Shown in pieces: positions 1,209 through 19,140 of a stretch of 23,537 nt of DNA; the stretch's first letter is position 1, and every line of letters begins with the position of its first letter. Source of the stretch: a virus; IMG/VR virus record IMGVR_UViG_3300035670_001260, positions 1 to 23,537 of that record; one strand, given 5' to 3'. A program made the position numbers and the translations under genes. The notes beneath the pieces were generated by a model. The model did not search any database, was not told the origin of the DNA, and saw nothing but the letters and a program-made list of their open reading frames with translations.

Positions 1209-1739
1209 ATGATGGAGACAACGCCGACATTGTTGGAGAGTTCGCCCAAGCGCAGCACGCCGGGACTCAAGCGGCTGCATGGCAAGCACCGCGAAATTTT
1301 ACGGCTGTACTGCGTCGGCACCCCGTATAATGAGATCGCGGAAATAGTCGGCGTATCGCTTATCTGCGTAAGGCTCACTATTGAGTCGCCTCTCGGCCAA
1401 GCTCGCATCAAGGAGATGCAAGACGCGCTGGATGAGAAGACACGCGACGTGCAGACCGCGATTATAGAAGGCGCCGCACGAGCCCAGGCCTATCTCGAGG
1501 ATATAGTGGTGGGCCGCGAAAAGGTCTCTCCCGCGTTACGAGCTAAGACGTGCGAATCCATGCTCGACAGAGCAGGGTACGTTAAGCCGACCAAAAACTT
1601 GAATATCAACCTAGAAGGTCAGCTAACTGCTGAGGACATCGCCGAGATAAACCGCCGGGCACAAGCCGCCAGTCCTTTCTGCCGGCCTCAGCCCACCTCT
1701 GCTACCATCGAAGCGGTGGTGTCCGATGACCAAAGCTAA
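1209..1739 (+). CDS. terS: Terminase small subunit (putative)
   Basis: The 176-aa product has the layout of many phage small terminases. There is an N-terminal helix-turn-helix (about residues 26-55, with GTPYNEIAEIVGVS as its core). A helical oligomerisation-like middle follows (DEKTRDVQTAIIEGAARAQAYLEDIV). The C-terminal part carries the LDRAGYVKP signature seen in these families. TerS recognises packaging sites and loads DNA onto TerL. The frame is open upstream to a TTG at 1173, but that TTG is the -35 box, so ATG 1209 (or 1212) is preferred. AAGGG at 1203-1207 is very close to it; TTG 1230, with GGAG 12 nt upstream, is an alternative. The gene overlaps the next by 14 bases. TerL lies 3.9 kb downstream, an unusual separation. 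The DNA-binding subunit next to the 25-bp array suggests, by inference, that the array is its target. Confidence 0.72.
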   Translation: MMETTPTLLESSPKRSTPGLKRLHGKHREILRLYCVGTPYNEIAEIVGVSLICVRLTIESPLGQARIKEMQDALDEKTRDVQTAIIEGAARAQAYLEDIVVGREKVSPALRAKTCESMLDRAGYVKPTKNLNINLEGQLTAEDIAEINRRAQAASPFCRPQPTSATIEAVVSDDQS

Positions 1740-2118
1740 GCTAAGCGAGCACTTCACTGTGCGCGAGTTTGCTTGTCCGTGCTGTGGAGCCTGCCACATC
1801 TACCCCACCCTCCTGCAATCACTGGAAGCACTTCGTACTGTCGTAAGCGCTCGCTTAGCTAAAGATACTCCTCTGCGTATCAACAGCGGGTACCGCTGTA
1901 CGCTACACAATTCGCAACTCCCTAACAGCTCTCCCTTCAGTATGCATTGCATCGGTAAAGCCGCGGACATCCGTGCGATAAAATCCTTGAGTGTGACGGA
2001 ACTCGCAGAGTTAGCGGAGACTATCCCTGCGTTTAACAACGGCGGTATAGGCCTCTATGGATGGGGTATCCACGTGGATGTCCGCGGCTATCGAGCAAGG
2101 TGGTATACACAGCCATGA
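1726..2118 (+). CDS. M15-family peptidase, probable endolysin
   Basis: The 130-residue protein matches the peptidase M15 (D-Ala-D-Ala carboxypeptidase or L-Ala-D-Glu endopeptidase) fold throughout. It begins with the typical FTVREFACPCCGAC segment (residues 10-23). SGYRC..HN follows (54-62), then SMHCIGKAADI with the first zinc ligands H74 and D81, then GIHVDVRG with the third ligand H116 and D118. The length is that of a stand-alone single-domain enzyme. It has no signal peptide or cell-wall-binding domain, so it would need a holin or other route to reach peptidoglycan. It overlaps terS by 14 bases and the next gene by four (ATGA). By family knowledge it cleaves peptidoglycan peptides during lysis. 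Its location, away from the membrane genes at 13.2-15.6 kb and next to virion genes, also allows a virion-associated role. Confidence 0.9.
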   Translation: MTKAKLSEHFTVREFACPCCGACHIYPTLLQSLEALRTVVSARLAKDTPLRINSGYRCTLHNSQLPNSSPFSMHCIGKAADIRAIKSLSVTELAELAETIPAFNNGGIGLYGWGIHVDVRGYRARWYTQP

Positions 2119-2577: not shown

Positions 2578-3144
2578 ATGGCCACCATTGCAGCTATTAC
2601 AAACCGAGAGCGCATAAGTCTTATACGAATCGGTATACAGCAACTCAACCGCTGCGTTCAGAAGGTGTCTGACGTTGATCACCTTATCGCTTCGTATAAA
2701 AGCCAAACAGAGCCTAATCCTGGCGAGATAGTCTACTACGCCAACCTCCTCCTTGATGACGCCAAGGCGCTCTTCGAGACAGCCTTATCTCAACTGTGCA
2801 TACTTGCTAGCGGCACTGTACCCACAGCAAAAGACTCTAGATGGCGCCAGCGTTGGGAATGGACAGCTGGTGCTGACGGCGTAGCCAGTATTCAATTTGT
2901 AGAGACTACTGACCTTATCTACATTAACGCTGTTAGTGGCACTGTACTTGGCGAATTCTCTGGCTTTGAGGTAGGCGATGTCATTACTGTCACTGGCGCT
3001 ACCAATGCTGGCAATAACGGTGACCACATTGTTACTGACATTGGCGCAGCTGGCGCGTATGTTGAAGTAAGTGGTAGTACCTTGGTAAATGAGACTAAGA
3101 CTGACACTGTTGTCCTCACTCTTACGGAAGCTAACGTTGCCTAA
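2578..3144 (+). CDS. Hypothetical structural protein, helical N-terminus and beta C-terminus
   Basis: The 188 residues divide in two. Residues 1-80 form an amphipathic helical region (RERISLIRIGIQQLNRCVQK and on). Residues about 95-188 are beta-rich, with GDVITVTGATNAGNNGDHIV and a closing strand TDTVVLTLTEA. The second half resembles small domains appended to phage tail and baseplate proteins, but no named family is recognised. It starts two bases after the previous stop with no clear SD, suggesting translational coupling. Its last 8 bases overlap the preferred start of the next gene. No signal peptide or catalytic residues are evident. Function unknown; probably virion-associated by position. 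Confidence 0.65.
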   Translation: MATIAAITNRERISLIRIGIQQLNRCVQKVSDVDHLIASYKSQTEPNPGEIVYYANLLLDDAKALFETALSQLCILASGTVPTAKDSRWRQRWEWTAGADGVASIQFVETTDLIYINAVSGTVLGEFSGFEVGDVITVTGATNAGNNGDHIVTDIGAAGAYVEVSGSTLVNETKTDTVVLTLTEANVA

Positions 3145-5077
3145 CCACCCTTACATAAGTCGGAGACTGTACCTACTGCTTCTCACGGTTCTCCTGGCTG
3201 CTCCCCTTCCATTGGTTGCGCAGTCTCCGGCTTATTTCAACAACGTGAAGGTTGGCGGCGGGTACGAAGACCCTCCTGGTGTGGGAACGACCCTTACTAA
3301 TACTGGCGACGGGTACTTCCGTGGCGATCTTATCGTCGATGGTAACATAACCGGCGGTGGCATCAATGTGGACCTTGAAGCTGCCTTCGCCTCTCCATAC
3401 CCGCTCGGTGTAACAGTTCCAAACAGTGTAGCCGCGACAACCTTGTCAGCTTCTTCCCTCTCCCTGGTAACTCCCCTGGCCGACGCTTATGTGGCGAACA
3501 CCCTAACGCTGACTGCAGGGTCTGTCGCGGCTTCCATTATTACTGGCTCCATTACTGATGCGCAGGTTGCCGACGCACTTACCGTTACTGGCTACATGCA
3601 GGACACTGACATTGATACCTTCGCGGAGCTGCAATCCTGGGTAGCTGACAAGACGCTGCTAAACGCTGAAGACGACCTGCCGTGGGCGGATGCTGACGTG
3701 GCCGATATACTGACCATTGGTGCGGGTAGTACGATTGACCCGTCACTGCTTCCTACCACTGACCTTGCCAGCCCTGGGCCGATAGGTGGGACTACTCCGT
3801 CCACGGCAGTGTTTGACCCGACTGTTACCGTAAGCGGAGACGCAGGGACGATCGCGCTTAGTGGCGACCTTCAGGCGATTGTATATGATCGTGCCGCACC
3901 GAATACCGCTAACTACTTTCGCTGGACAACTGGCGAGTATATGATGTTTGAGAATACTGCAGGTACTGATGTATTCTACCTTGGTGACTCCGCTGTCACC
4001 GCTTATCAGGCTTTCTCCGCGCAGTCAACTATAGCCAGTTTTGGTGTAAACGATACTACCTATGCACAACTACGCTTATATGGCAACAGTACAACCACTG
4101 GTAGTCAGGTTTTGTGGTACCAAAGTGCAGACGAAGACGGCACCATCGATTACTTTGTCGCGCAGCCAAACAACACCTATTGGATGCTTGGTCCTAGTAC
4201 CAACACAAATCTGATACAGTTGTATGAAACTGAAATGCTGTGCGAGTATGACTTCACAGCTAACGACGACTTGAATGTCGGCGATGACATTGTATACATT
4301 GGTGCTGGCGAGTTCGACATCAACAATCCAGCCGATACGAATATGGACTTGGTGTCCGCTGGACAGCTGCGCTTTTGGACAGACTCTGATAATGACGATT
4401 CTAATACATCCGACTTTATTTGGTTCAAAGATGCTAGCACTGTAGTGATGACCTTTGATACTAGCGTCCCCGAGCTTAACATAGTTGGCTCTGTGGATAT
4501 CTCTACTGGTAGTACGTATCAAATAAATGGCACGCAGATTGCTGCTACTAACCTGAGCGATGGCGCTAATATAGCGCACATAAACGCCGTGGAGACACTC
4601 AGTGCTGACTGGGTTAATACTGCCAATCCGTGGGCAGATAATGAAGTCTCCAATACTCTCACATCGAGTATCTTCGTTGGTAGTGGTAGTACGACTAACG
4701 CGGTGGACTTGGCGACGGCTGAGGTAGCGGGTCGTCTTAATGCAGACATGCTGATTGCTGACACAGACAGCGCTACACTAGATGCTAGTGGAGAGGTATC
4801 ACTTACCAGCTTCATAGTGAAGATAACTTCTTACTCTGGTACCTCCGATACGCTAGAGACCTTTGATATTGGCACTAGCAATCTTTCTATGCCTTTTGTA
4901 CTACTACGTCCTGCTGTAGGCCATACTATTACAGTAAACGATGGCGGCGCGATAAATAGTTGCTTCGATCTAAATTCAGACTTTACTATGGTCGACACAG
5001 ATGGGGATTGTTTGCTAATCATGCAAGATCCATACGGCGGCGCATGGTACATGGAAGTGATGCGTAGAGACAGTTAG
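3137..5077 (+). CDS. Large tail-fibre-like protein with N-terminal signal peptide
   Basis: The preferred start is TTG 3137, with GGAAG (3126-3130) six bases upstream, giving 646 aa. An upstream ATG at 3089 in the same frame lacks such a site. Residues 1-28 look like an export signal: ISRRLYLLLL, a long hydrophobic core, then PLVA|QSP. The twin arginine in S-R-R-L-Y-L is Tat-like, but the core is hydrophobic enough for Sec. The mature part is Thr/Ser/Gly/Asp-rich beta-repeat sequence. It includes GDLIVDGNITGGG and SPGPIGGTTPSTAVF, motifs common in phage tail fibres. A PWADxxVxxxLT motif occurs twice (residues 182 and 498). It may be a receptor-contacting fibre. A signal peptide on such a protein is odd; export to the surface of the infected cell is an alternative. 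Confidence 0.72.
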   Translation: MPNHPYISRRLYLLLLTVLLAAPLPLVAQSPAYFNNVKVGGGYEDPPGVGTTLTNTGDGYFRGDLIVDGNITGGGINVDLEAAFASPYPLGVTVPNSVAATTLSASSLSLVTPLADAYVANTLTLTAGSVAASIITGSITDAQVADALTVTGYMQDTDIDTFAELQSWVADKTLLNAEDDLPWADADVADILTIGAGSTIDPSLLPTTDLASPGPIGGTTPSTAVFDPTVTVSGDAGTIALSGDLQAIVYDRAAPNTANYFRWTTGEYMMFENTAGTDVFYLGDSAVTAYQAFSAQSTIASFGVNDTTYAQLRLYGNSTTTGSQVLWYQSADEDGTIDYFVAQPNNTYWMLGPSTNTNLIQLYETEMLCEYDFTANDDLNVGDDIVYIGAGEFDINNPADTNMDLVSAGQLRFWTDSDNDDSNTSDFIWFKDASTVVMTFDTSVPELNIVGSVDISTGSTYQINGTQIAATNLSDGANIAHINAVETLSADWVNTANPWADNEVSNTLTSSIFVGSGSTTNAVDLATAEVAGRLNADMLIADTDSATLDASGEVSLTSFIVKITSYSGTSDTLETFDIGTSNLSMPFVLLRPAVGHTITVNDGGAINSCFDLNSDFTMVDTDGDCLLIMQDPYGGAWYMEVMRRDS

Positions 5078-5087: not shown

Positions 5088-5651
5088 ATGCCACTCAAAC
5101 ATAGCCACTTCTTCGTTAGTTGCCTCTTGGCTTGCTCCGTCTTAGTCGCCCAAGAGCTGTACACCGTCGACGGTATCGCGCTCGACAGCTCCGAGTTAGA
5201 GCGCCTTACCATGCAGCAGAAGCTTAAGGCGGAGCAGGCCGAACAAACACAGCGCTTTGTGGCTCAGATGCAGGGGTGGATAAAGGAAACCGCGCCGGCG
5301 GTTATCGCTAACAGCACTCTAAGCGAAGGTCAAAAACAGCAGCTCGCAGCTCGGATGCAAGTCATGCAAGCAGACCTGCAGTTGCTAGGCCAGATGACAT
5401 TGGAGCAACTACAAGGCGTGGAAATCTCCGCTCGCGTTGTTAAAATGCAGTCACTCGACCATAATGTCGAAGCGCTGCAAGCGCAGATAGACAGAGCGAA
5501 TGAGCGTCTTGGGATGGCTGAAGAGGCTGATAAACAGAAGGTGGAAGAAGAGATTGCCACATTACAGACCCAACTGACCGACGCTTCCACCAGTGCCGAG
5601 AATTTCCGTACTACCCACAAGCTGCCGAAGAAAGCGGACAAGCCCGAATGA
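5088..5651 (+). CDS. Exported coiled-coil protein (spanin-like or structural)
   Basis: The 187-aa product begins with a short basic segment and hydrophobic core (FFVSCLLACSVLVA). It could be cut after A at VA|QEL, or lipidated at C16 (LLAC is a weak lipobox). The rest (about 40-185) is almost entirely helical, Q/E/A-rich coiled coil, including TLEQLQGVEISARVVKMQSL and LQAQIDRANERLGMAEEADK, with a Lys-rich end. A membrane anchor plus a periplasmic coiled coil is the plan of inner-membrane spanins, but no partner gene is embedded here. It lies 10 bases after the fibre gene and overlaps terL by four bases (ATGA). The cleavage sequence LVAQ is shared with the previous gene. Function is unproven. 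Confidence 0.65.
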   Translation: MPLKHSHFFVSCLLACSVLVAQELYTVDGIALDSSELERLTMQQKLKAEQAEQTQRFVAQMQGWIKETAPAVIANSTLSEGQKQQLAARMQVMQADLQLLGQMTLEQLQGVEISARVVKMQSLDHNVEALQAQIDRANERLGMAEEADKQKVEEEIATLQTQLTDASTSAENFRTTHKLPKKADKPE

Positions 5652-7195
5652 AACTCACTGATGCAGAACTAAGTATACACGAAAAATGCTCCATCTCTAC
5701 GGAAGCATGTGCGAATGTATACTTCCATGACCTCTTCCCTCTGCCATTCTCAGATGGTCATAGAGAAGCGATGGCTGCATTGGACAATCCAGAGATACGG
5801 CACCTTGCTATAGTCGCTACTCGTGGCTGGGGTAAGACCAGCATAGTGCAGCGGGCGTATGTAGCCCGACACGTACTATACCAGAAGAGCCGGTTTGTAG
5901 TTCCAGTGAGTTGTACCAGTTCGCAAAGCGAACAGCAGAGCGAAAGTCTGAAGCGAGAGTTTGAGTGCAACCCTCTGATGAAACAACTCGGCTTCAAGAA
6001 CTTGGTGAGCAACAATTGGGCTAAGGACCGGTGGATCTCCAATGGCACCTTAGTTCTGCCTCGAGGCTATGGACAACAAATCCGCGGTCAGTTGTATGGG
6101 AGCGACCGGCCGGACCTAATTATAGTGGACGACCTGGAAGACAGTGAGGGTGTACTGTCTGATGAGCAGCGCGCGAAGAAGAAAGAATGGTTCTTCGGTG
6201 ACGTGCTTGGAGCAGTAGACGCGAGCAAGTACCACAAGATAGTGTACATCGGTAACATGCTACACGAAGACTGCCTTCTTGCTAACCTGCTGGAAAATCC
6301 AGATTGGGTTAGCTTCCGCTATCCGATTGCTGATGATGATATGCACTCGCTATGGCCGGAGAAGTACAGCGATGAGTACATCGCCAAGTTGTACCGCTTC
6401 TATAAGAACGAGCACTTGCTCGACGTCTTCTATCGTGAATACATGTGCCAAAGCATGGCACGAGAAGGTGCACCCTTTGACTCAAAGTGCTTCCAATACT
6501 ACTCTCCCGAAGAGCTTAAGAAGCTGTTCGTGGAGTTCGTCGTACTCGTCGATCCTGCTAAATCGACTGGCTCTAGTGCATGTGACACGGCAGTAGTTGG
6601 AGTGGGCATAGATGCGCTGAATAACCGCTTCTACGTTCATGATATTGACTATGGCCGGTGGCACCCGAATGAGATCGTTGATAATGCTATGGCGATGTGC
6701 CAGCGCCTTGGAGCTCGTGTGCTGGGCGTGGAAGAGGCTGGTAGTGGAGAGTTTATCTCTTGGCCGATTAAGAACGAACTGAGGCGTAGGGCTGCTAATG
6801 TAGAATACGTCAAACTCACGCCACGTAAGGGCCCGTCACAGTACGTGCCGAATGGCTCCTCGCAGCAAGGTAAAGACTCTCGTATTGGGCACGCACTTGT
6901 AGGATTGTACCGTAATGGACTCGTTTATCATAACCGAGAACACCGTCATGTTGACCAGCTCGAACGTCAGTTGCTCGAATTCCCTCGAGGTAAACGCAAG
7001 GATATCATCGACGCTCTCTCTTACGTTGCCCAGCTCATGGAGACAGGAGAGCGGTACTTTGCTTGTCGCCGTTATGTAGATGACGATAAAGATACTGAGT
7101 ATGGTCCTGGTATGTTAGACGCGAAGTATGAGGACGCACGCCTCAAGGAACTGTGTGCACCAGATAGCACTCGCCCCGAGCCTTGGCAAGTGTAG
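5648..7195 (+). CDS. terL: Terminase large subunit
   Basis: This is the ATP-driven DNA packaging motor and headful or site nuclease, docking on the portal. The 515-aa protein has an N-terminal ATPase with Walker A ATRGWGKTS (residues 57-65) and Walker B LIIVDDLED (157-165, with the catalytic acidic pair following). The C-terminal RNase H-like nuclease has VLVDPA (D302), D313 in ACDTAVVGVG, the VEEAGSG segment (361-367) and the late acidic residues in KDIIDALSYV (451-460). Length and domain order are normal for TerL. It overlaps the previous gene by four bases. Its stop codon touches the second copy of the shared intergenic motif, before the portal gene. Separation from terS by four other genes is unusual. 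Confidence 0.97.
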   Translation: MKLTDAELSIHEKCSISTEACANVYFHDLFPLPFSDGHREAMAALDNPEIRHLAIVATRGWGKTSIVQRAYVARHVLYQKSRFVVPVSCTSSQSEQQSESLKREFECNPLMKQLGFKNLVSNNWAKDRWISNGTLVLPRGYGQQIRGQLYGSDRPDLIIVDDLEDSEGVLSDEQRAKKKEWFFGDVLGAVDASKYHKIVYIGNMLHEDCLLANLLENPDWVSFRYPIADDDMHSLWPEKYSDEYIAKLYRFYKNEHLLDVFYREYMCQSMAREGAPFDSKCFQYYSPEELKKLFVEFVVLVDPAKSTGSSACDTAVVGVGIDALNNRFYVHDIDYGRWHPNEIVDNAMAMCQRLGARVLGVEEAGSGEFISWPIKNELRRRAANVEYVKLTPRKGPSQYVPNGSSQQGKDSRIGHALVGLYRNGLVYHNREHRHVDQLERQLLEFPRGKRKDIIDALSYVAQLMETGERYFACRRYVDDDKDTEYGPGMLDAKYEDARLKELCAPDSTRPEPWQV

Positions 7196-7216: not shown

Positions 7217-9160
7217 ATGCCTATTATACAAAATCCACTGAACGCCCCGAATGAGATTGAGGTTGGACGAACTTATTCGTACCAATACCCACTCGGCCTC
7301 AATCTGCGTCCGGATTCCGAGCTGCACGCTGATCTTGTCGCTAGGATCACCTGCATGGCTCGAGATGCGCGCCAACAGATTGCGAACCGCTACACAAGAT
7401 GGCAGAAGATAGACAAGACCCTCACTGCTTATATCAGTGAGGATAGTCTATTTAACCAATCACTTGGCAAGAACGACGAGCTGCAGATTGTGGTGCCGAT
7501 GTCGTATGCCACATTGGACACCATCCTCTCTCACTGGATTACGTCATTCACAAACGGCCCACTTTTCCAGTATCGTGGCTTTGGTCCTGAGGACAAGGTC
7601 GCTGCCATGCTGCTGGAGCTGGCTATTGACTCCCAAGTAAGGCGCAATAAGATGCTCCTTAGCTTGCACACCCAATGGCGTGACTCCCTTGCGTATGGCC
7701 TTGGCATCGTGCATCCCAGATGGGAACTCCAATACGGTCGTCGGATAGTGAAGCAAGAGACGAACATCTTCTCTGAGATCCTCAATACGGTGCTAGGCGT
7801 GCGTAACCAGCGAGCCGTCACTCCTCGGCAACCCGTTTCCGAAGGTAACGTACTGGATGTATGGGACCCCTACAATTACTTGCCTGATCCAAATGTGGAC
7901 CCGAGTAATGTACAAGCAGGACAGTTCGTAGGCCACATCCGTCCGACTAACTACTACGCGCTATTGTCCCTAGAGCAGGACGACCCCGAGACCTACTTCA
8001 ATGTGCGCTATTTGGAGAATCGCGATTTTGCTATCTCCGAGAAGGAAACGAGCGGGTGGACCTCTACTGTACGCACTACGAACGACACTAAACTTACGTA
8101 CGGCAAACAGGGTGACGTACTAACCTTCTACTGCACGATCATCCCCAAAGAGTGGAAGGTTGGTAAGAGCACCTATCCGGAGAAATGGGTATTTGAAATC
8201 GCTGGCGACGCAGTAATTATACGCGCCAATCCGCTGAAGTTCGTGCACGACATGTATCCTGTGGGCGTGGCCGCTCCGACGTATGATGGTCACACGCTCG
8301 CACCTATTAGTGCCCTCGAGATGATCTACCCCATGCAGGAAATCATCGACTGGCTGTATAAGTCGCATATTCATAACGTCCGCAAGGCGTTAAATAATAT
8401 GCTGATTGTCGACCCGTCGCTGGTCCGGTACGATGACGTAGCGAATCCTGAGCCTGGTAAAATCATCCGGATACGTGAGCACGTATGGGGGCGGGGTGTA
8501 AAAGACGCCGTAGAGCAGCTCTCAATTGCCGATGTGACGCACTCCCATCTGCAGGATATTGGTAGTGCCATCGATGTGCTGCAACGCGTAAGTGGCGCGG
8601 TGGATTCGTTGCAAGGAATCGTACGAACTGGAGGAGAACGTCGCAGTGCAACAGAAATGCGTGACACACGACTTAGCGCCCTTAGCCGTCTCCAAAAAGG
8701 GGCCTTTTTGGCAAGCTTGCAAAGTATGCAAGACGTGGGTAGAATGCTCGCCATGCACACCCAGCAATTCATGGAACTGGGTATCTACCTGGACTTGGTG
8801 GGACAACACAAGCAAGAGCTTGAGCAAATCTACCAGTCGGACAACATAAAGGCCGACCCACTTGACTTCATCTGCGACTTTGATATTATTGTGGCGGATG
8901 GTATGTCTGAGGGTGAAGAATACTTAAATGAGAGCATGCAAATGTTCCAAGTCATTCAGAGTAATCCACAAACGCTGCAGACCTTTGACATGGTGCGAAT
9001 GTCCTTAGATTTGATGAAGAAAAGTGGGTACAAAAATCCGACTAACTTCTTGTTGCCCAACTTCCAAGTACTCCCCGACGAGCAAGCAATGAACATGGCG
9101 GCGGATGGTAACATGGTACCGGCGGACTCACTGATGCCTGCTGAGGTGGTCAATGCCTGA
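7217..9160 (+). CDS. Portal protein
   Basis: A 647-aa protein directly after terL with typical portal features. It has an N-terminal helical segment, then a wing and stem region with VSEGNVLDVWDPYNYLPDP, a hallmark pattern of portal families. Later come LEMIYPMQEIIDWLYKSHIH, GGERRSATEMRDTRLSALSR and a long C-terminal helical region. Twelve copies would form the DNA channel, bind TerL and seed capsid assembly. The length suits the larger portals of short-tailed and related phages. The start at ATG 7217 has no visible SD and follows copy 2 of the shared motif, so its translation may be coupled to terL or depend on the motif. It overlaps the next gene by 8 bases. Confidence 0.9.
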   Translation: MPIIQNPLNAPNEIEVGRTYSYQYPLGLNLRPDSELHADLVARITCMARDARQQIANRYTRWQKIDKTLTAYISEDSLFNQSLGKNDELQIVVPMSYATLDTILSHWITSFTNGPLFQYRGFGPEDKVAAMLLELAIDSQVRRNKMLLSLHTQWRDSLAYGLGIVHPRWELQYGRRIVKQETNIFSEILNTVLGVRNQRAVTPRQPVSEGNVLDVWDPYNYLPDPNVDPSNVQAGQFVGHIRPTNYYALLSLEQDDPETYFNVRYLENRDFAISEKETSGWTSTVRTTNDTKLTYGKQGDVLTFYCTIIPKEWKVGKSTYPEKWVFEIAGDAVIIRANPLKFVHDMYPVGVAAPTYDGHTLAPISALEMIYPMQEIIDWLYKSHIHNVRKALNNMLIVDPSLVRYDDVANPEPGKIIRIREHVWGRGVKDAVEQLSIADVTHSHLQDIGSAIDVLQRVSGAVDSLQGIVRTGGERRSATEMRDTRLSALSRLQKGAFLASLQSMQDVGRMLAMHTQQFMELGIYLDLVGQHKQELEQIYQSDNIKADPLDFICDFDIIVADGMSEGEEYLNESMQMFQVIQSNPQTLQTFDMVRMSLDLMKKSGYKNPTNFLLPNFQVLPDEQAMNMAADGNMVPADSLMPAEVVNA

Positions 9161-9413
9161 TAAACTCAAAGCGGCTGATGTCGAACTATACGTCAACATG
9201 GATGTGCACCGCGCACTGGAAGCAATTGCTGAAGCACGTATAGAGCGCATTCATGACGAACTCGAGGGTGCCAAAACGATGGATGACGTAAAGCTCCTAC
9301 TTGGTGAGCGTAGGGGTATACGTTGGCTATTGAAAATGCCGAAGCTTATGCTGGAAGATCTACAAATGGCTGAAGAAAGGGCTAATCATGGGCGAGCAAC
9401 CAACCAACAATGA
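9153..9413 (+). CDS. Small helical protein between portal and scaffold
   Basis: An 86-residue, charged, predicted all-helical protein (YVNMDVHRALEAIAEARIER, then LLLGERRGIRWLLKMPKLML). GAGGTGG (9141-9147) supplies an SD before ATG 9153. It overlaps both the portal (8 bases) and scaffold (26 bases) genes. No family is recognised. Position suggests a head-assembly accessory, but there is no direct evidence. Confidence 0.7.
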   Translation: MPDKLKAADVELYVNMDVHRALEAIAEARIERIHDELEGAKTMDDVKLLLGERRGIRWLLKMPKLMLEDLQMAEERANHGRATNQQ

Positions 9414-10248
9414 ATCCACTGAAATGCTAGCAATTGCAGAGTCGAATCTGGCTACTGCGAAGCAGGAAAACCTACGGGGCATGGCAGAGATGCTAGGCAT
9501 GCCAGTAGACGACCTTGAGCCTGCGCCAAAGAAGGAAGCACCTGCTCCTGAGCCTGAACCCGAAGAAGAGGCTGAAGAAGCTGACTCCGCCGAAGAAGAC
9601 AAAGGCGACGAGGACAGCGACGAAGCTGAACCTGAGGAGACAGACGAAGGTGCGGATACTGATCGTATAAAGGGTTTGGAGGAGAAGATCGCACACCTGA
9701 CTGAACTTCTGGAAGCGAAGCAAACGCCCGCTGAAGACAAGGGCGAGCCAGAGCCGAAGAAGGATAAGGATGGTGGTATTGACTTCATCACTGAAGACCA
9801 ATACACCGATGCACTTACCTCCAAGGGCGGTCTTAATACGGTATTGAATACTGTCTACGAAGCTGGTGTACAGGCTACCTTGAAGCGTATGGAGCCCGTA
9901 ATTCAACAGCGCGTAGTAGAGGCAATCAATACTCACATGGCCGTTCAGGACTTTTACCGTGCGAACCCTGAGCTCGCGGAGCATAAGGAAGTCGTGCAGG
10001 CCATCGCGCAGAAGCTAATCATCGAGAAGGGTGATAAGTATCCTGCGGCGAAGTTGTTCAAAGAAACTGCGACACTGGCCTACAAGAAGCTGAACCTTAA
10101 GCAAAACGAAGCAAAGAAGAGGGAGCCGAAGAGTAACCCCGGCTTCTCGCAGCCCGGTAAGTCCAATCGTGGTCCTGCCACGAAGAGTACTAACAAATCG
10201 AAGACCCAACAGGATATGATGGCTGAGCTGCTAAGCGCAGACATCTAG
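9388..10248 (+). CDS. Capsid scaffolding protein
   Basis: The 286-aa product has the composition and location of a scaffold. There is an acidic, Pro/Glu-rich low-complexity stretch at about residues 45-95 (EPEPEEEAEEADSAEEDKGD). A short coiled coil (RIKGLEEKIAHLTELLEAK) follows, then a central helical region. The C-terminus is strongly basic and disordered (NEAKKREPKSNPGFSQPGKS), ending in a helix, MMAELLSADI. In head assembly the basic end would bind the coat protein and the scaffold is later expelled. It sits between portal and major capsid genes, as expected. Similarity at sequence level is weak in this class, so the call rests on composition and synteny. Confidence 0.82.
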   Translation: MGEQPTNNESTEMLAIAESNLATAKQENLRGMAEMLGMPVDDLEPAPKKEAPAPEPEPEEEAEEADSAEEDKGDEDSDEAEPEETDEGADTDRIKGLEEKIAHLTELLEAKQTPAEDKGEPEPKKDKDGGIDFITEDQYTDALTSKGGLNTVLNTVYEAGVQATLKRMEPVIQQRVVEAINTHMAVQDFYRANPELAEHKEVVQAIAQKLIIEKGDKYPAAKLFKETATLAYKKLNLKQNEAKKREPKSNPGFSQPGKSNRGPATKSTNKSKTQQDMMAELLSADI

Positions 10249-10713: not shown

Positions 10714-12015
10714 ATGCCTACCCCTACTGCTGTTCTCGGTATGCGCGGCTCCGGTACCTGGGACTCGAACGAACGGCCAGAAAGCTGGCGTGAAATGATT
10801 CTTCGGCTGTGGCCGAATGGCATGGCCCCGTTGACGGCCATGACGGCTAAGCTGAAGAATGAGGAAGTGCAAGACCCTGTTTTCCACTGGTTTGAAAAAG
10901 GCCTGTGGGATAAGGGCTGTACGCTGCAAGACAGCTATATCTACGAAGACGCCGCTATGGCTACGGCTGTATCGGCTAGCACAAACGCCGCTGTCGGCAC
11001 GGTTGTGTACGCGAAGGTAACGACCGCCTTTGCGAAGCAGGTGCGCGTCGGACACGTGGTGATGCTACGCTTGACGACCGACCATCGTCAAGACTTGCGT
11101 GCCATTGTGGAGAGTGTCAATACGACAACTGGTGCGATTGGTTGCCGTATGCTCGAGACGGACGCAGCTACGGATTACCTGGCGACGAACAATCGCTTGG
11201 TGATTATCGGCTCGGCACACGCAGAAGGCGCTGCTCGCCCCTCGGCAATTAGCTACACCACGAACCACTACTACAACTACACCCAGATCTTCCGTACCAG
11301 CATGGAACTCACGCGTACTGCGATGAAGACCAAGCTGCGCACTGGAAACTCCTACCAGGAAATCAAGCGGGACTGCTTGCTTGATCACTCGATGGAGATG
11401 GAATGGGCGTGGTTGTTCGGTACGCGTTATCTGGAAACGGACGACGTGACTGGTCAGCCTCGACGCTTTACCTACGGGATTGTCCCGTATCTGCGTGACA
11501 ACTATGCGACCAACGTGGTCGACTTCAAGGTCGACTATGTGGGCAACTCGTGGGTTGACGCAGGCAAGGAAGCGCTCGATACCTACATGGAGCTGGCGTC
11601 TCGGTACAAGGCTAAGGGTGACAACAACGAGAAGCTGGTGTTCTGTGGTAACGGTGCGCTGCTGGGCATCCAGCAAGTTGTGGAGGCCAATGCGTCGTAC
11701 AACATTTCTCGTGGTGAAGTTGGCTACGGGATTAAGGTGCGCACGCTGGAGTCGGTGTTTGGTACGTGGCATTTCATCACGCATCCGCTGTTCAACCAAG
11801 AGACGAGCATGCAGAACGCGATGCTGTTGTTCAATCCCAAGCACCTTACCTATCGGTACGTCACGGACACCATGTTCAAGGAAGATCGTTCCTGGCGTGA
11901 AGGTGGTAACTCCGGTTACGACGGTCCGCAGGAAGAATACCTCACTGAAGCTGGTCTTGAGATTCACCATCCCGAGACCTTCATGTATATCAAGAACGTC
12001 GGTATTGACGGCTAA
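10714..12015 (+). CDS. Major capsid protein (HK97 fold, SU10/DUF5309-like)
   Basis: The 433-aa protein follows the scaffold and has a strong AGGAG (10701-10705) eight bases before the ATG. The pattern YTQIFRTSMELTRTAMKTK, then MEMEWAWLFGTRYLETDD and RRFTYGIVPYL, resembles the DUF5309/SU10 group of HK97-fold coat proteins. The C-terminal SYNISRGEVGYGIKVRTLES and AMLLFNPKHLTYRYV strands fit the A and P domains. Hundreds of copies would form the capsid. No N-terminal delta or protease domain is fused, and the separate scaffold gene agrees with this. A perfect 13-bp hairpin follows the stop, as often found after highly expressed capsid genes. Confidence 0.9.
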   Translation: MPTPTAVLGMRGSGTWDSNERPESWREMILRLWPNGMAPLTAMTAKLKNEEVQDPVFHWFEKGLWDKGCTLQDSYIYEDAAMATAVSASTNAAVGTVVYAKVTTAFAKQVRVGHVVMLRLTTDHRQDLRAIVESVNTTTGAIGCRMLETDAATDYLATNNRLVIIGSAHAEGAARPSAISYTTNHYYNYTQIFRTSMELTRTAMKTKLRTGNSYQEIKRDCLLDHSMEMEWAWLFGTRYLETDDVTGQPRRFTYGIVPYLRDNYATNVVDFKVDYVGNSWVDAGKEALDTYMELASRYKAKGDNNEKLVFCGNGALLGIQQVVEANASYNISRGEVGYGIKVRTLESVFGTWHFITHPLFNQETSMQNAMLLFNPKHLTYRYVTDTMFKEDRSWREGGNSGYDGPQEEYLTEAGLEIHHPETFMYIKNVGIDG

Positions 12016-12082: not shown

Positions 12083-13093
12083 ATGGGTAGCTTGAGTGTA
12101 AAGCGGGCAGCTGATAACAGCACCTACAACAATTACATGAACCAGTGCGTAGGCAGCAAAGTCGACTACGCCAACGAACAGATCGGTACTACGGTATCGC
12201 TCATGTCCTATTCCAAGGCTATCTTGGCGCTGCTGAAAGCCTCGCTAGCTGGTGGAAATATCTTCTACGTAGATAGCGGCCATGCAAGCGCTGCGAACGC
12301 TACAACTGGTGGTGCTGGCTCCTCGCCGACACTTCCGTTTGCCACCATTGACTACGCGATTGGCCAATGCACGGCAAACAACGGTGACGTTATCTTTGTG
12401 ATGCCTGGGCACGCAGAGACAGTAGCCGGTGCTGCTGGCATTGACTTCGACGTTGCTGGTGTGAAGGTTATTGGTATTGGCGAGGGTTCTGACAGGCCGA
12501 CTATCACACTGAGCGCCGTAGCTAGTACTATCCACATGGACGCCGCCAACAGCTGGCTTGAGAACATGTTGATTAAGGTCACGGACGACGCGGCCATTGT
12601 AATCAATGTGGACAAGACAGACTGCACTATCAAGGACTGCGAGTTTAGGTACGGTACATCCAAGGAATGGGTCATCTGTATCGACGTTAACGGTGGTGGA
12701 GCTAATGCCTGCGACCGTACTCGAGTACTTGGTTGCGTGTTTAAGAGTCCGGTGGCTGGTGCGAATACCTGTATTGAGCTCGGTGAAGTGGCCGATAGTG
12801 TGGAGATTGGCAACTGCCGTTTCATTGGTGACTATGCTGACGCGGCAATTCACAATCCCACCGGTAAAGTTCTCACGCAGCTGTACATTCATGACTGCGA
12901 TATTGAGAATACCCAAGCTGGCGACCATGCTGTCGAGTTGGTGAGCGCGTGCACGGGTCGTCTGATTCGTAACTTCTATTCGACTAATGCACTTGCGACA
13001 GCAGTTGATCCTGGGAGCTGCTTCAGCTTCGAGTGCTACGCAAACCATGCTGTTGACAAGAATGGTCTGCTTACGCCTGCGGTTGATGCATAA
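12083..13093 (+). CDS. Parallel beta-helix (pectate-lyase-like) virion protein
   Basis: The 336-aa protein has a good SD (AAAGGAG) before ATG 12083. An N-terminal helical region of about 55 residues is followed by IFYVDSGHASAANATTGG, then PFATIDYAIGQCTANNGDVI, the classical entry motif of right-handed beta-helix polysaccharide-binding or -cleaving proteins. Repeating coils follow (CTIKDCEFRYG, TRVLGCVFKSP, VEIGNCRFIGD, LYIHDCDIENT), each with an xIxxCxF-type turn. No catalytic triad can be assigned. Located right after the major capsid gene and before a terminator-like hairpin, it may be a capsid-surface or tail appendage binding glycans. No signal peptide, unlike the shorter relative at 14856. 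Confidence 0.75.
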   Translation: MGSLSVKRAADNSTYNNYMNQCVGSKVDYANEQIGTTVSLMSYSKAILALLKASLAGGNIFYVDSGHASAANATTGGAGSSPTLPFATIDYAIGQCTANNGDVIFVMPGHAETVAGAAGIDFDVAGVKVIGIGEGSDRPTITLSAVASTIHMDAANSWLENMLIKVTDDAAIVINVDKTDCTIKDCEFRYGTSKEWVICIDVNGGGANACDRTRVLGCVFKSPVAGANTCIELGEVADSVEIGNCRFIGDYADAAIHNPTGKVLTQLYIHDCDIENTQAGDHAVELVSACTGRLIRNFYSTNALATAVDPGSCFSFECYANHAVDKNGLLTPAVDA

Positions 13094-13102: not shown

Positions 13103-13129
13103 TGCAGGGGGGCACTCAGCCCCCCTGCA
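13103..13129 (+). terminator. GC-rich hairpin closing the head-gene operon
   Basis: TGCAGGGGGGC (13103-13113) and GCCCCCCTGCA (13119-13129) form a perfect 11-bp stem with an ACTCA loop, 10 bases after the beta-helix stop. No U tract follows; instead copy 3 of the shared palindrome begins two bases later. The arrangement reads as end of one unit and start of the next. Confidence 0.6.
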
Positions 13130-13151
13130 CGACTTCAAATTTTGAATGCCT
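13127..13151 (+). promoter_or_regulatory. Shared intergenic palindrome, copy 3 (before membrane-protein operon)
   Basis: Bases 13131-13151 are identical over 21 positions to 7195-7215. The stretch GCACGACTTCAAA (13127-13139) also matches 1098-1110. It lies between the GC-rich hairpin and the AAGGAG of the next gene. Candidate phage-specific promoter or operator. Confidence 0.65.
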
Positions 13152-13168
13152 GGAAAAAGGAGCACGAT

Positions 13169-13708
13169 ATGGGTAAGCTATTGAAGGGAATGCTGAGCGT
13201 AGTACGATTCGCTAGGTCTCGTACTAGCCAAAACAGCATACTGGGTGTAGGCTCAATAGTCGCCGTTATCCAGTTTCTACGCACACGATATCCCGAGTAC
13301 GTCCTATGGAATTCAGAAGCAGATGCACTTATTGAGGGCGCCCTAATAGCGGTAGTTGGGCCATACCTTGGTCGCGCTATCGCCTTCCTTCGTGCTCACT
13401 TTAGTGATGATATACCAAAGCTGCGTAAGGCTGGACTACTTGCGCTGCTCATGACGGTCGGTCTCAGTATCGGGGTCGTAGGTTGTACGACTACCAGTAC
13501 ACTCCCAGATGGTACCATCATTGTTAAGACCACCGATTGGCAAGCCATTTTTGATGGCGTAGATGCTGCCCTCGAGCGGTACGAGAGGATAGAAGCACGC
13601 CGAGACGCTGCGGAAGCTGCCGGTGAGGCTGAGAAGGCAGCACGGTTGGATGCAATACTGGTGGCAATTACTAAGGCGGTAGAAGAGAACAAGGAAGGTG
13701 GAGAATGA
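13169..13708 (+). CDS. Holin-like membrane protein with internal lipobox
   Basis: ATG 13169 has AAGGAG (13157-13162) six bases upstream, giving 179 aa. Two hydrophobic segments (about 24-37, ILGVGSIVAVIQFL, and 53-74, ALIEGALIAVVGPYLGRAIA) resemble a small holin. A basic patch (KLRK) and a third segment (89-105) then end in VVGC (103-106), a perfect lipobox. The remainder, TTTSTLPDGTIIVKTTDW and a charged helical tail, looks like a periplasmic lipoprotein or o-spanin domain. One polypeptide thus seems to join holin-like and lipoprotein parts; an internal start giving a free lipoprotein is not evident (only ATG within the h-region). It opens the membrane-gene operon after copy 3 of the shared motif. 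A lysis role is inferred. Confidence 0.65.
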   Translation: MGKLLKGMLSVVRFARSRTSQNSILGVGSIVAVIQFLRTRYPEYVLWNSEADALIEGALIAVVGPYLGRAIAFLRAHFSDDIPKLRKAGLLALLMTVGLSIGVVGCTTTSTLPDGTIIVKTTDWQAIFDGVDAALERYERIEARRDAAEAAGEAEKAARLDAILVAITKAVEENKEGGE

Positions 13709-13953
13709 TGGAAGAAGTCACTGTCAGCTTCGGCTTAAAGGACATTACGCTGATGGTCGGCGTAGGCGTGACTATGGTTGGTATAGGTCTAGCAGTCGGT
13801 CAGGCCAAGAATGAATTTGCTCACCTTCGTGCGGCAGTGGCCAAGCTGGAGACGATATTGACTAACGGGTTGTCACGTAGAGTTGAGAATATTGAACGAC
13901 ATGTCCAGGCTCTGCCTTGCGCAGAGGACGATTGTCCTAATGGAGAGGATTAA
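13705..13953 (+). CDS. Small single-span membrane protein A (paralogue of 15353-15574)
   Basis: An 82-aa protein with one N-terminal membrane span (ITLMVGVGVTMVGIGLAVG, about 14-32), then a coiled-coil-like helix, the block TNGLSRRVENIERHV and a tail LPCAEDDC with two Cys. The 73-aa protein at 15353 has the same plan: span, TNGLTDKVDNIEAIV and LPCVTKEC, with about one heptad less in the helix. Topology suits a holin, an i-spanin or another small lysis or superinfection protein, but no family name can be given. It overlaps the previous gene as ATGATG and is followed at once by the GC-rich cassette. Confidence 0.75.
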   Translation: MMEEVTVSFGLKDITLMVGVGVTMVGIGLAVGQAKNEFAHLRAAVAKLETILTNGLSRRVENIERHVQALPCAEDDCPNGED

Positions 13954-13954
13954 G

Positions 13955-14470
13955 ATGAGATACGCAACGACGGCGGCGGTACTCGCCATTCTCGCTCTGG
14001 TAGCGCCGGGCGACGCACAGACGTGGGGCGACCTGCGTCCCGCGCCGATCGCGCCGATACTCTGGGACGCGGCTCCCACGCTCGACGTATTGGACACGAT
14101 GGAGGCGACCCAGCGTGACATGCGATGGGCACGGCGGCTCATCGAGGACGCCTACGAACTGACGTGGCTCGGGATGAAGGTTGACGGCCAGATCTGCATC
14201 AACGATGCCGTCGAGACGCTGGAGCAGCTACAGACGAAGCACGCGGCGGCAATTCTGCGTCTGCGTGACTACGCGTCGAAGAACAGCAAGAACTCGCTCG
14301 GCTGGGATGCGCGGGAGTACTGGCAAAGCCTGAGAGTCGAGAGCGCGAGACTGGTAGTTGTGGCGCGTAGCTTGCGGGCCGTGATTGACGGACTGGCGGG
14401 CACCGAGGACATAATGCAATGGCGTACCGCGCTGGAAGCGTGGGCGCAAGAGAATGGAGTGCAGAAATGA
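13955..14470 (+). CDS. Secreted helical protein A (cassette gene 1)
   Basis: ATG 13955 follows GGAGAGG (13942-13948) by six bases, giving 171 aa. An earlier in-frame TTG lies inside the upstream gene and is not used here. Residues 1-21 form a clear signal peptide (TTAAVLAILALVAPGDA|QTW). The mature part is helical. Residues about 43-165 align without large gaps with residues about 20-140 of the LamG protein at 15871: shared EA..xD, YE (67-68 / 45-46), LG (72-73 / 50-51) and a C-terminal ARLVVVARSL...W..AL.A block. Local base composition is clearly GC-richer than its left neighbour. No named family. Function unknown; exported by prediction. Confidence 0.68.
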   Translation: MRYATTAAVLAILALVAPGDAQTWGDLRPAPIAPILWDAAPTLDVLDTMEATQRDMRWARRLIEDAYELTWLGMKVDGQICINDAVETLEQLQTKHAAAILRLRDYASKNSKNSLGWDAREYWQSLRVESARLVVVARSLRAVIDGLAGTEDIMQWRTALEAWAQENGVQK

Positions 14471-14859
14471 AGCGGTACATCGTGACGGGACTGATAGCGG
14501 CGCTGGCGTTCGGCGCGGGGACGTTGGTGGAGTGGCCGGGCGTGTTCGCCGCGCAGGAGAACCCGCAGGTCATCAGCTACGCCAACGAGGACGTGCGCCA
14601 GGGCTGCGACAGCGTGATCCGCACTTATCGCCAACTGAAGAGCGACGTTCAAGACTGGTATGCGAAGGGACTGACGGTCCCGGCGGACGCGGATTTGCTG
14701 TCCGACGGGAGCGCGACGGACGGACGCACACCGATCACCAATTCCGACGTGCTGCTCTACGTGTCGAATGCCGAGGCGTTGATCGCGTGGCTGGAAGCGG
14801 ACAACAACGCGCGGCTGAATGTCTTCCTGAAACCAAACGTCAATGGTGATAGCCAATGA
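14467..14859 (+). CDS. Secreted small protein (cassette gene 2)
   Basis: The 130-aa product starts at ATG 14467 (ATGA overlap; GGAG seven bases upstream); an in-frame ATG at 14419 would spoil the signal peptide. Residues 1-29 are a signal sequence (RYIVTGLIAALAFGAGTL, then VFAA|QEN). The mature part has YRQLKSDVQDWYAKGL, then LLSDGSATDGRTPITNSDVL and a final helix, AEALIAWLEADNNARLNVFL. The 'DGS..DGR.PIT..DV' arrangement recurs in small phage structural proteins, normally without a signal peptide as far as I know, so a fusion of an export signal to a virion-type domain is possible. GC-rich like its neighbours. Confidence 0.65.
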   Translation: MKRYIVTGLIAALAFGAGTLVEWPGVFAAQENPQVISYANEDVRQGCDSVIRTYRQLKSDVQDWYAKGLTVPADADLLSDGSATDGRTPITNSDVLLYVSNAEALIAWLEADNNARLNVFLKPNVNGDSQ

Positions 14860-15356
14860 CGCGCTGGGTACTGATAGCCGCGCTGCTGCTGTGCGGCGCG
14901 GCGCAGGCGACGACGTACTACGTCGATCCGTCCGGCGGGAACGACGGCAACGCTGGCACGTCGTTCGCCGCTGCATGGGCGACGACGCAACACGCGGCGG
15001 ACACGGCGGTAGCGGGCGACGTGGTGAGGTTATGCCAGACTGCGACTGAGACCACCGCCGCCGACGGCACGGCCACGGGAGTGACAACGCAGAAGTACAC
15101 CGGTAAGGTGCGAATGCTACAGACCGTTCCAGGAGCCGGTGGAGACGCGCCAACGGACAACTACGATGGCGTCATCACCGATGCGGATGGGATGGACGTG
15201 CTAGCTGGGGCGGGAGCGAACAGAAGCACGAGCGCGACGCAGGTGGTCGCGGACGCGAGCCTAGGGGCCGTGGTAAACTCGGTACTTACGCTGGACATCT
15301 CCGCCGCTGGCGACACGAACAAGGGTACCTGGCAGATTGTAGTGGAGGGCACATGA
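14856..15356 (+). CDS. Secreted, truncated beta-helix (pectate-lyase-like) protein (cassette gene 3)
   Basis: A 166-aa protein with a signal peptide (WVLIAALLLCGAAQA|TTY) directly followed by YYVDPSGGNDGNAGTSFAAA and WATTQHAADTAVAGDVVRLC, the entry motif of right-handed beta-helix carbohydrate-active proteins. In complete enzymes several hundred residues of beta-helix follow. Here only about 110 more come before the stop, so it appears to be a cut-down or decayed form. It shares the YVD..G....N.G and AT..A....A..GDV pattern with the capsid-adjacent beta-helix protein at 12083. Start overlaps the previous stop as ATGA. GC content is the highest seen in the window (44 of 60 bases in 14881-14940). 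Confidence 0.68.
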   Translation: MTRWVLIAALLLCGAAQATTYYVDPSGGNDGNAGTSFAAAWATTQHAADTAVAGDVVRLCQTATETTAADGTATGVTTQKYTGKVRMLQTVPGAGGDAPTDNYDGVITDADGMDVLAGAGANRSTSATQVVADASLGAVVNSVLTLDISAAGDTNKGTWQIVVEGT

Positions 15357-15574
15357 TGCAAGACGTGGCAGTTCAGATACATCTAACCGACCTACTGATG
15401 GCGTTTGGAATCTTTGGTACGGCATTCGGTGTGGCTGGGTCGTGGTACAATCTCAAGAGAGACGTGAAAGACTTGAAGAGTAAAGTCACGAACGGCCTAA
15501 CTGACAAGGTGGATAACATCGAGGCAATAGTGATGACTCTGCCTTGTGTGACTAAGGAATGTAAGGAGCTCTAA
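15353..15574 (+). CDS. Small single-span membrane protein B (paralogue of 13705-13953)
   Basis: A 73-aa protein; ATG 15353 or, better spaced from GGAGGG (15344-15349), ATG 15356. Both paralogues start MM with an acidic residue nearby. The span LLMAFGIFGTAFGVAGSWY is followed by a shortened helix, TNGLTDKVDNIEAIV and LPCVTKEC. Conservation of the C-terminal block with a diverged span suggests the soluble tail and its two Cys matter. The composition drops back to about 47% GC here (28 of 60 in 15361-15420), marking the end of the GC-rich cassette. Confidence 0.75.
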   Translation: MMQDVAVQIHLTDLLMAFGIFGTAFGVAGSWYNLKRDVKDLKSKVTNGLTDKVDNIEAIVMTLPCVTKECKEL

Positions 15575-15577
15575 GTT

Positions 15578-15871
15578 ATGGCAACGTACACAGAAGTGAA
15601 CAGTGGGCTGGCCACTATCGAGAATCAGATTACGTATACGAGAAACGAACTCAAGAAAGCTAAGGTCGGCTTCGCACAGCAGTCCAGCATTCTGGCGGGC
15701 ATCCCCAGCACGTACCAGTCGATTATCGACGCCATTAACGCGTACACACCGACTGGTGCGGTGGAGCAGGTGGCGAAGGATAAGCTCGCGAAGTACGCGG
15801 CGGAGTACACTGCACTCAAGAGCGCAGCCGACGCAGCAGTCGCGGCACTTGCTGCTATCACGGAGTTCTAA
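15578..15871 (+). CDS. Small helical protein
   Basis: 97 residues, all-helical by pattern (ENQITYTRNELKKAKVGFAQ, then AKYAAEYTALKSAADAAVAA), with no signal or membrane segment. AAGGAG (15563-15568) lies nine bases before the ATG, and its stop overlaps the next start (TAATG). Ala-rich coiled-coil proteins of this size are frequent in phage tail regions, but no family can be named. Confidence 0.68.
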   Translation: MATYTEVNSGLATIENQITYTRNELKKAKVGFAQQSSILAGIPSTYQSIIDAINAYTPTGAVEQVAKDKLAKYAAEYTALKSAADAAVAALAAITEF

Positions 15872-17391
15872 TGTGGCTCACCTGCCTACTTATAACAGCA
15901 ACGCCGATATTCTCGGAGCGGCTGCCGTACCAGACAGCACTCAGCACTGTCGAAGCCATCGAGGCGGACCTCGAGGGTGCGACAGAGCGCCTGGAGTACT
16001 GCTACGAAGCGGTATGCCTAGGCAGGTGGGACCATGCGCTAATGCGGGCGAATGGCGCGGCGGCAGTGCTTGCTGGCTTCAACGAGAAGTACACAGCTCG
16101 CATAGAGCACGCGTACAGCCTATCGGAGAAGTATCCAGACACACCAGTGATAGAAGCACTGCTGGACAGGTTGTATGCTGCTCAGGTAGACGCAGAGCGG
16201 CTGATGGTGGATGTGCGTCTGTGGGTGGAAACAGTACAGGCACTGTCTGGACTGCCGATTGCAGAGTGGAAGGCGCAATTAGACGCACTGCTGGAGGCCC
16301 CCATGTCTCTTCCAACTAGCGGATACGACCTCTATTCGGTTCAGAACCCGGCTGGCGACGTCACGAACTTTCCGTTCTACGTCGACTTGAGCCTGATGTC
16401 TGCTAGTTGGTGGGCCGCAATAGACACGACAGACTTCACTAAGGGAAGAGCGGCGATACACGCAAGCGAGACGGAGCTTGCATGCGAGTGGAAGAACGTA
16501 AATACTACCGCTAAGACGGGAGAATTGTACACTAAGTGGTCTGCGACCATAGGTGCTGCTGGCAGCAACTCACTCAGAGTCTATCCGCCGATGGCCGCCA
16601 ACGCAACAGTGGCGGCTGGCGACCCTTACGGAAGTCAAGCAGTGTGGACTGGCGCCTCTGTTGTTTGGCACATGGATGATGCTAGCAGTACAACTGTCGC
16701 CGATAGCACGTCTAATGGCAATACAGGAACGAAGGAATCTGCGAACCCAACAGAAATTACCGGAAAAGTAGGCGATGCTGCACAGGCATTTTCTGGAGAC
16801 TCTACCAGTAATAGAAACAGACTGTATACCGCCGCTAGGACGGTTACTGCTCCGACAGCTATGTCGTTTAGTATGTGGGCAAACGTTCACGACGCAATGC
16901 CCAATACGTACTCTGGACGGCTATGGAGTGAACGCGGAACGCAGGGGCCATTTCTAAGTGTTCATGATGACAGGAACTTGATGTTCTACTGGAGTGGCGC
17001 TACTGCGTTAACACACAGGTCTAATAATGCGGTCATCTCTCTAGACACTTGGCATCACATCGGTGTCACGTGGGACGGGTCTAATACTGCCGCTAACGCG
17101 AAAATTTATGTCGATGGCTCAGAAGTAGGATATCAGACCACTACTAACGGTGCTACCTTAGCGAACGCTACTGGGTCTGGCCTGTATTTAGGCAGAGAGG
17201 CAACTACAGCCACAAGCGATACACCTATCGACGCCGACATAGACGAATTTCGGCATACCCTTGGAGAGAAATCTAGCCAATGGTTTGCTTATGAGTATGC
17301 TAATATGTCTAATCCATCTTCGTTCTGGGGAACACCTACATGGGTGTCCCACGGCACGCCGTTGTACTATCACCGCCGGAGGGCGAATTGA
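15871..17391 (+). CDS. DUF2341-LamG lectin-like protein with N-terminal helical domain
   Basis: 506 aa in three parts. Residues 1-15 are a short, weak signal-like hydrophobic stretch (WLTCLLITATPIF). Residues about 20-142 are a helical domain matching the secreted helical protein at 13955. Residues about 160-240 (GDVTNFPFYVDLS, then AIHASETELACEWKNV) fit DUF2341. Residues about 265-485 (VVWHMDDASSTTVADSTSNG, then TWHHIGVTWDGSNTAANAKI and LYLGREATTATSDTPIDADI) are a LamG/concanavalin-like jellyroll. DUF2341 next to LamG is a known pairing in carbohydrate-binding surface proteins. It likely binds glycans on the host surface or as a fibre tip. Tail-module context supports a receptor-binding role; no catalytic residues are visible. 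Confidence 0.78.
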   Translation: MWLTCLLITATPIFSERLPYQTALSTVEAIEADLEGATERLEYCYEAVCLGRWDHALMRANGAAAVLAGFNEKYTARIEHAYSLSEKYPDTPVIEALLDRLYAAQVDAERLMVDVRLWVETVQALSGLPIAEWKAQLDALLEAPMSLPTSGYDLYSVQNPAGDVTNFPFYVDLSLMSASWWAAIDTTDFTKGRAAIHASETELACEWKNVNTTAKTGELYTKWSATIGAAGSNSLRVYPPMAANATVAAGDPYGSQAVWTGASVVWHMDDASSTTVADSTSNGNTGTKESANPTEITGKVGDAAQAFSGDSTSNRNRLYTAARTVTAPTAMSFSMWANVHDAMPNTYSGRLWSERGTQGPFLSVHDDRNLMFYWSGATALTHRSNNAVISLDTWHHIGVTWDGSNTAANAKIYVDGSEVGYQTTTNGATLANATGSGLYLGREATTATSDTPIDADIDEFRHTLGEKSSQWFAYEYANMSNPSSFWGTPTWVSHGTPLYYHRRRAN

Positions 17392-18423: not shown

Positions 18424-19140
18424 ATGCCAGTAACAGGAACACCAGTATCTGCTAGTACGACTATAACTACACTGCAAGGACTGAGGACGCAGTTAGTTAA
18501 AAAGACTGGACTTACTAGATTGGTAAGTACAAAGGTGCAAGGTAGTGATACTGTACCAGATTATGATGTAGATAACGGTGCAGATTTGTACATCAACATG
18601 GCGGTGCGCTGGTGGGATGAGAAGTTCTACATTGAGCGTATGCAGTCTGTTGCGCTATCTGTAGATGCGTACGAATTGACGCTGCCAGATACGTTGCTAT
18701 CTGTTGAGTACATGGCTCTGGACGACCAACAAGATCCACTAACGGCAGTAAACGAACGGTGGATGCGAGAAGCTTTTGGCGTACCATTCAGCGGAGAAAC
18801 TAGCGAGACCCCGCTGTATTGGTGCTTCAAAGGTGGCTCAGACGCAGGGTCTGCTAACAAGACTATCTACATCATGCCACCTAACGATATTAGTAGGAAT
18901 GTGCTGGTGTATGGCCACTTTCGCGAAGCTGAGCTCGTAGACAACGCAGACACAAATTGGTGGACATTGAATCACTGGGATAAGGTACTCTTTGTAGCAG
19001 TGCAGTTGGCGCTGGACTTGGACCTTAACCCGGACGGGAATAGCACTCTCCAACGTCTCCTCTATGAGGTACAGCAGTCTATTGTTCGCCATAAGGTCTA
19101 CAACGAAGTCAGTGTGCATGGCACCGTAATGCGAGGCTAG
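18424..19140 (+). CDS. Head-tail adaptor-like protein (putative)
   Basis: 238 aa, starting two bases after the previous stop with GGGAG (18413-18417) six bases upstream. After an N-terminal arm, the central pattern DLYINMAVRWWDEKFYIERM, then VDAYELTLPDTLLSVEYMAL and GETSETPLYWCFKGG, resembles adaptor or gatekeeper proteins that sit beneath the portal in short-tailed phages. The C-terminus, WDKVLFVAVQLALDLDLNPD plus a long helix, also fits. Its position before two nozzle-like proteins matches the T7 gp11-gp12 order. The family assignment is by pattern and context; a generic virion protein remains possible. Confidence 0.6.
   Translation: MPVTGTPVSASTTITTLQGLRTQLVKKTGLTRLVSTKVQGSDTVPDYDVDNGADLYINMAVRWWDEKFYIERMQSVALSVDAYELTLPDTLLSVEYMALDDQQDPLTAVNERWMREAFGVPFSGETSETPLYWCFKGGSDAGSANKTIYIMPPNDISRNVLVYGHFREAELVDNADTNWWTLNHWDKVLFVAVQLALDLDLNPDGNSTLQRLLYEVQQSIVRHKVYNEVSVHGTVMRG

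Follow-up and report, generated by a model that had tools for sequence, protein, structure and literature searches.

A GC-rich cassette with predicted export signals in a variable coat-to-adaptor block of an environmental tailed phage

Three consecutive genes of an environmental tailed phage, here called A, B and C, begin with stretches that resemble export signals, are richer in GC than their surroundings and lie between two similar genes for small membrane proteins, TM1 and TM2. This arrangement raises the question of where the cassette came from, how it relates to the genes that bracket it, and what exported products might do for the phage. The window analyzed is the whole of IMG/VR virus record IMGVR_UViG_3300035670_001260 (23,537 bases), and a DNA comparison with 50,697 phage records returned no match to it. 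Its mapped genes run along the + strand from an M15 endolysin gene and two signal-peptide genes (g3089 and g5088) through terminase, portal, a scaffold-like gene and coat to the block studied here, which is followed by G and then by the large genes I and J (Table 1).

Table 1. Coordinates, strand and supporting evidence of the features discussed
Feature	Coordinates	Strand	Evidence or remark
M15 endolysin	1726..2118	+	
g3089, signal-peptide gene	3137..5077	+	
g5088, signal-peptide gene	5088..5651	+	
Terminase	5648..7195	+	
Portal	7217..9160	+	
Scaffold-like gene	9388..10248	+	
Major coat protein, left edge of variable block	10714..12015	+	30-40% identity to annotated major capsid/head proteins of four phages
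g12083, accessory, possibly beta-helix-like	12083..13093	+	weak similarity to C N-terminus, z 4.5
g13160, hydrophobic segments and lipobox-like VVGC	13169..13708	+	4-nt overlap with TM1 start; sub-threshold holin and Lpp-like matches
TM1, small one-TM protein, coiled-coil-like tail, TNGL...LPC....C	13705..13953	+	weak PHROG 736 match, E 0.003
A, signal-peptide protein, predicted helical bundle, GC-rich	13955..14470	+	paralog of E N-terminal domain
B, phage protein family member, 27-aa hydrophobic N-terminal extension, GC-rich	14467..14859	+	17 other loci
C, signal peptide, beta-helix-type N-terminus and ~75-aa domain, GC-rich	14856..15356	+	~75-aa domain also occurs as small stand-alone phage proteins
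Maximum-likelihood GC-rich segment	13971..15270	.	composition change-point scan
TM2, TM1 paralog	15353..15574	+	start overlaps C stop (ATGATG)
D, 97-aa protein, no significant family	15578..15871	+	
E, A-type helical domain and LamG/concanavalin-like lectin domain	15871..17391	+	PF13385, E 7e-15
F, phage protein	17388..18422	+	relatives in Microcystis phage Mvi-Yong1342-1 and L095
G, tail-adaptor-like, right edge of variable block	18424..19140	+	directly after coat in relatives; adaptor role inferred from position

Two features of the block stand apart from the cassette. Between g12083, which has no Pfam match, and g13160 lies a strong hairpin (13103-13129; TGCAGGGGGG CACTCAG CCCCCCTGCA), followed, by eye, by no T-run and possibly a transcription or processing signal, and F contains a 99-base unit twice in tandem (17785-17982), the copies being 72% identical. 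PADLOC found nothing.

Composition and paralogy of the cassette and its flanks

The initial annotation had described the three genes as GC-richer than their flanks and had read this as insertion of foreign DNA, and gene-by-gene composition bears out the difference. A, B and C have GC contents of 0.632, 0.621 and 0.655 and GC3 values of 0.77, 0.82 and 0.77, against 0.455-0.576 and 0.41-0.69, respectively, for the remaining mapped genes; the cassette as a whole (GC 0.639) lies far outside windows of the same length taken elsewhere (mean 0.515, sd 0.020, maximum 0.559). An unsupervised change-point scan, based on likelihood only and using no gene positions, returned as its best segment a stretch of GC ~0.64 that nearly coincides with the three genes, with a log-likelihood ratio of 42.9; the largest value in 30 block-shuffled control sequences was 10.3. 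In codon usage, too, the three genes fit one another better than they fit the rest of the phage. Compositionally A-B-C is foreign, and it is sharply bounded at gene junctions.

The bracketing membrane genes are paralogs, as first proposed: an alignment of TM1 with TM2 over 77 aa gives 35% identity (E 5e-14; z 22 relative to shuffled sequences), and both the TNGL block and the LPC....C tail are conserved between them. A second paralogy links A to residues 12-139 of E (25% identity, E 8e-7, z 11.6). At the nucleotide level both pairs have diverged widely, with 50% identity between TM1 and TM2 and 43% between A and the N-terminal part of E in codon alignments, and TM1 and TM2 have no long direct repeat in common, which places the duplications, or twofold acquisitions, well in the past. 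Both TM genes are low in GC and A is high, so the composition step must be later or come from a different source; judged from these alignments, the TM1/TM2 pair is probably far older than the step. The further proposal that the insertion duplicated its bracketing gene does not fit this picture, and a recent target-site duplication is rejected on the same grounds, though old recombination at the TM gene may have taken place. The duplicated or doubly acquired unit is a TM gene together with an A-type domain, not the TM gene alone, and we infer two diverged modules of this kind in tandem, TM1-A-B-C and TM2-D-E.

In the searches made of a phage collection and of IMG/VR, A, TM1, TM2, D and E had no homolog outside the window. 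The phage collection yielded no homologs of A, TM1, E or C and none of B or D, and IMG/VR profile scans with A plus the E N-terminus and with TM1 plus TM2, made with two peptide patterns each and of low sensitivity, found none.

Relatives of the block and of its genes

Relatives of the phage were reached only by coat alignment, IMG/VR scans with a single coat or portal protein having returned nothing. The alignment found 80 IMG/VR loci, all distant (coat at most 45% identical). A match to G was present in 50 coat relatives, 49 of them usable once L006, in which both matches fell on one frame, was excluded. G lies within ~630 bases after the coat gene in 48 of the 49; the one exception, L031, has an interval of 3,825 bases. 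In several relatives accessory genes are found elsewhere, either between G and I or in the terminase-portal interval. As the coat-G interval is short or empty in nearly all of these genomes, the entire block 12016-18423 is accessory in this phage, and the comparison points to this whole coat-to-adaptor interval, not the cassette alone, as the variable site. The searches brought up no close relative in which the cassette is missing or replaced; what the distant relatives reveal is the state of the whole interval, not of the cassette site.

B has relatives at 17 distinct loci besides the window. These are proteins of ~105 aa, most beginning like MxNTNPQA, and reading upstream in frame gave no counterpart of the hydrophobic N-terminal extension of the window's B (the L117 copy is cut at its start). 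Directly after B, at a distance of a few bases, 16 of the 17 loci have a large open frame in the position of C; it measures 437-562 aa in 15 of them, was seen over its first 120 codons in L116, and often begins like ALSANTVWEVxTGGSDTNGGGF. Terminase, portal and coat profiles matched nothing in these loci, which cover parts of the genomes concerned. L097 repeats the window's B-C-TM order, with B, a C-position gene that has a predicted signal peptide where its counterparts have none, and a gene for a small TM and coiled-coil protein; the first two of these have GC3 values of 0.66 and 0.68 vs 0.49. Across the family GC3 tracks that of the own genome (r 0.79), and the window's B, at 0.82, exceeds the 0.58 predicted from the rest of its phage (z 2.8). 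By these comparisons B and its following gene look like a traveling fiber-type module, and the recurrence of B beside a fiber-type gene in other phages, together with the composition step at gene boundaries, upholds the foreign origin first suggested for the cassette. Its source was most probably another phage.

In genome_contigs, tblastn with the B alignment found no relative, and a DNA pattern found five loci, one of them a true B relative (L118, 2651-2965) on a contig binned as an Opitutaceae MAG, which hints at possible hosts of such modules. A separate 119.7-kb contig, L095, carries relatives of F at 7118-8485 and 10772-11248 as well as a pair of B and a C-position gene.

C is a composite of 166 aa. 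For its N-terminus the matches are a Pfam Beta_helix protein of L038 (E 9e-8) and a gene with a signal peptide in L065 (E 2e-5); for the last 75 residues they are small phage proteins of L056 (E 8e-11) and L020 (E 9e-6). Homology between the C N-terminus and the C-position genes beside B relatives is unsupported (hhalign probability 0.8%); the two have only their position and general type in common.

AlphaFold2 predicts A, from a two-row alignment, as a helical bundle (pLDDT block means 75-94 over residues 41-170); B, at a mean pLDDT of 81, is modeled as a long helix and a smaller helical portion. The A model resembles generic helical bundles in the PDB, the best match being to a designed protein (Z 12.2), and the B model has no significant match among solved structures and a single match in BFVD, to the uncultured Caudovirales protein A0A6J5L8R5 (E 1e-4). 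Neither predicted model points to a function.

Predicted export and the possible roles of the cassette

All three cassette genes had been credited with signal peptides, and the N-termini of A, B and C do pass a heuristic for export signals based on charge, hydrophobic core and small residues at -3/-1. Cleavage, placed by eye, is predicted at MRYATTAAVLAILALVAPGDA^QTW in A and at MTRWVLIAALLLCGAAQA^TTYY in C. The heuristic is also passed by g3089 and g5088, so predicted signal peptides extend beyond the cassette; E has a weakly hydrophobic N-terminus and fails it. The two upstream genes, of which g3089 is fiber-like, sit just before the terminase gene. Among 84 coat relatives, signal-peptide-like N-termini occur in 9 of 326 large genes (>=400 aa), at nine different loci, and three of the seven that were scanned are Pfam Beta_helix proteins, one of them with a sub-threshold Phage_depo_C match. 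These counts are lower bounds, given that the automatic gene map overlooked A, B and C owing to a long antisense ORF; signal-peptide spike-type genes thus recur in this group at low frequency. Our reading of the literature on signal peptides in phage structural proteins turned up no decisive paper.

We give about an even chance to the reading that A, B and C, as part of an accessory phage block, are exported fiber or adhesin proteins that act at a surface. On this reading the three co-translated genes (13955-15356) would have been acquired fairly recently, an age that, like the edges of the import, is judged from composition alone, from a phage of roughly 63% GC, and would have lodged inside the larger accessory block between the coat and tail-adaptor genes. 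The block would then contain one surface module twice, in diverged forms that both combine a small membrane protein and a helical domain with a part of binding or fiber type (the beta-helix start of C; the LamG domain of E). By their predicted signal peptides, A, B and C would reach the host envelope late in infection, there to work at the cell surface or to become part of the particle as fiber- or tailspike-type adhesins; TM1 and TM2 would be their anchor- or holin-like partners in the inner membrane. Exchanged tail-fiber and tailspike modules offer a close likeness, in the mosaic block, the foreign composition, the adhesin-type domains and the pairing of B with a large following gene, which phages with differing structural genes appear to share; they differ in that this cassette lies between coat and adaptor, bears predicted Sec-type signal peptides and has a short C.

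A different function would follow if the region were a block for lysis or envelope disruption, in which g13160, TM1 and TM2 are holin- or spanin-like and A, B and C are periplasmic accessory lysis or superinfection-exclusion proteins. Small one-TM proteins with a coiled-coil tail beside a lipobox protein do recall holin/spanin cassettes; g13160 combines hydrophobic segments and a lipobox-like VGC with sub-threshold holin matches, and L020 groups an M15-like endolysin gene, a DUF1353 gene and a gene for a small TM and coiled-coil protein. In this phage, however, the M15 endolysin is encoded 11 kb away, TM1 and TM2 have weak matches to PHROGs of unknown function and none of significance to holin or spanin families, and positive charges after their TM segment suggest, by eye, an inside C-terminus and a cytoplasmic tail, unlike that of an i-spanin. 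The paralogous TM genes are moreover split by fiber-type genes, and the B family elsewhere precedes such genes. We regard a lysis block as unlikely.

Somewhat less probable still is a moron-like lysogenic-conversion cassette, whose secreted effectors of host origin would alter the surface of the lysogen. Foreign composition and predicted export are what such a cassette would bring, and the N-terminal part of C has a likeness to secreted proteins of the pectate-lyase type (NCBIfam PelN, E 0.001, far short of the family cut-off). Yet B belongs to a phage family, not a host one, with just one of the five pattern matches in genome_contigs a true relative; consensus scans found neither a promoter-like site nor a terminator in the cassette, which is embedded in an overlapping operon, and no lysogeny gene was recognized within the 23,537-base fragment.

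It is improbable that A, B and C are native genes made GC-rich by their amino-acid content or by local mutation: D, the E N-terminus and F are moderately GC-rich as well (0.56-0.58), but the high GC3 of A-B-C steps at gene boundaries, and the E N-terminus, although a paralog of A, reaches a GC3 of only 0.64. An assembly chimera is very improbable, for although the sequence is a single contig for which a close relative was not seen, the changes in composition at either end coincide with intact gene junctions, the overlapping stop and start codons at A/B, B/C and C/TM2, with SD-like sequences inside the preceding gene, indicate one operon rather than a chimera, and the paralog of A lies on the same contig.

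To return to exported fiber or adhesin proteins, the suggestion that the cassette is a swappable set of surface effectors is plausible for the class, and we read the cassette as an exchange of modules at a variable site rather than as a system of a new kind. More tentatively, and with rather doubtful odds, Sec signal peptides may have been fitted to a phage fiber module whose parts are exported to the infected cell's envelope for display, for exclusion of rivals or for extracytoplasmic assembly. Fiber modules are the main means by which phages change binding. The B-type module appears to travel between phages of differing structural genes, and here its parts carry predicted export signals; should export prove true, the envelope of an infected cell, and not the virion only, would be a place from which phage adhesins act.
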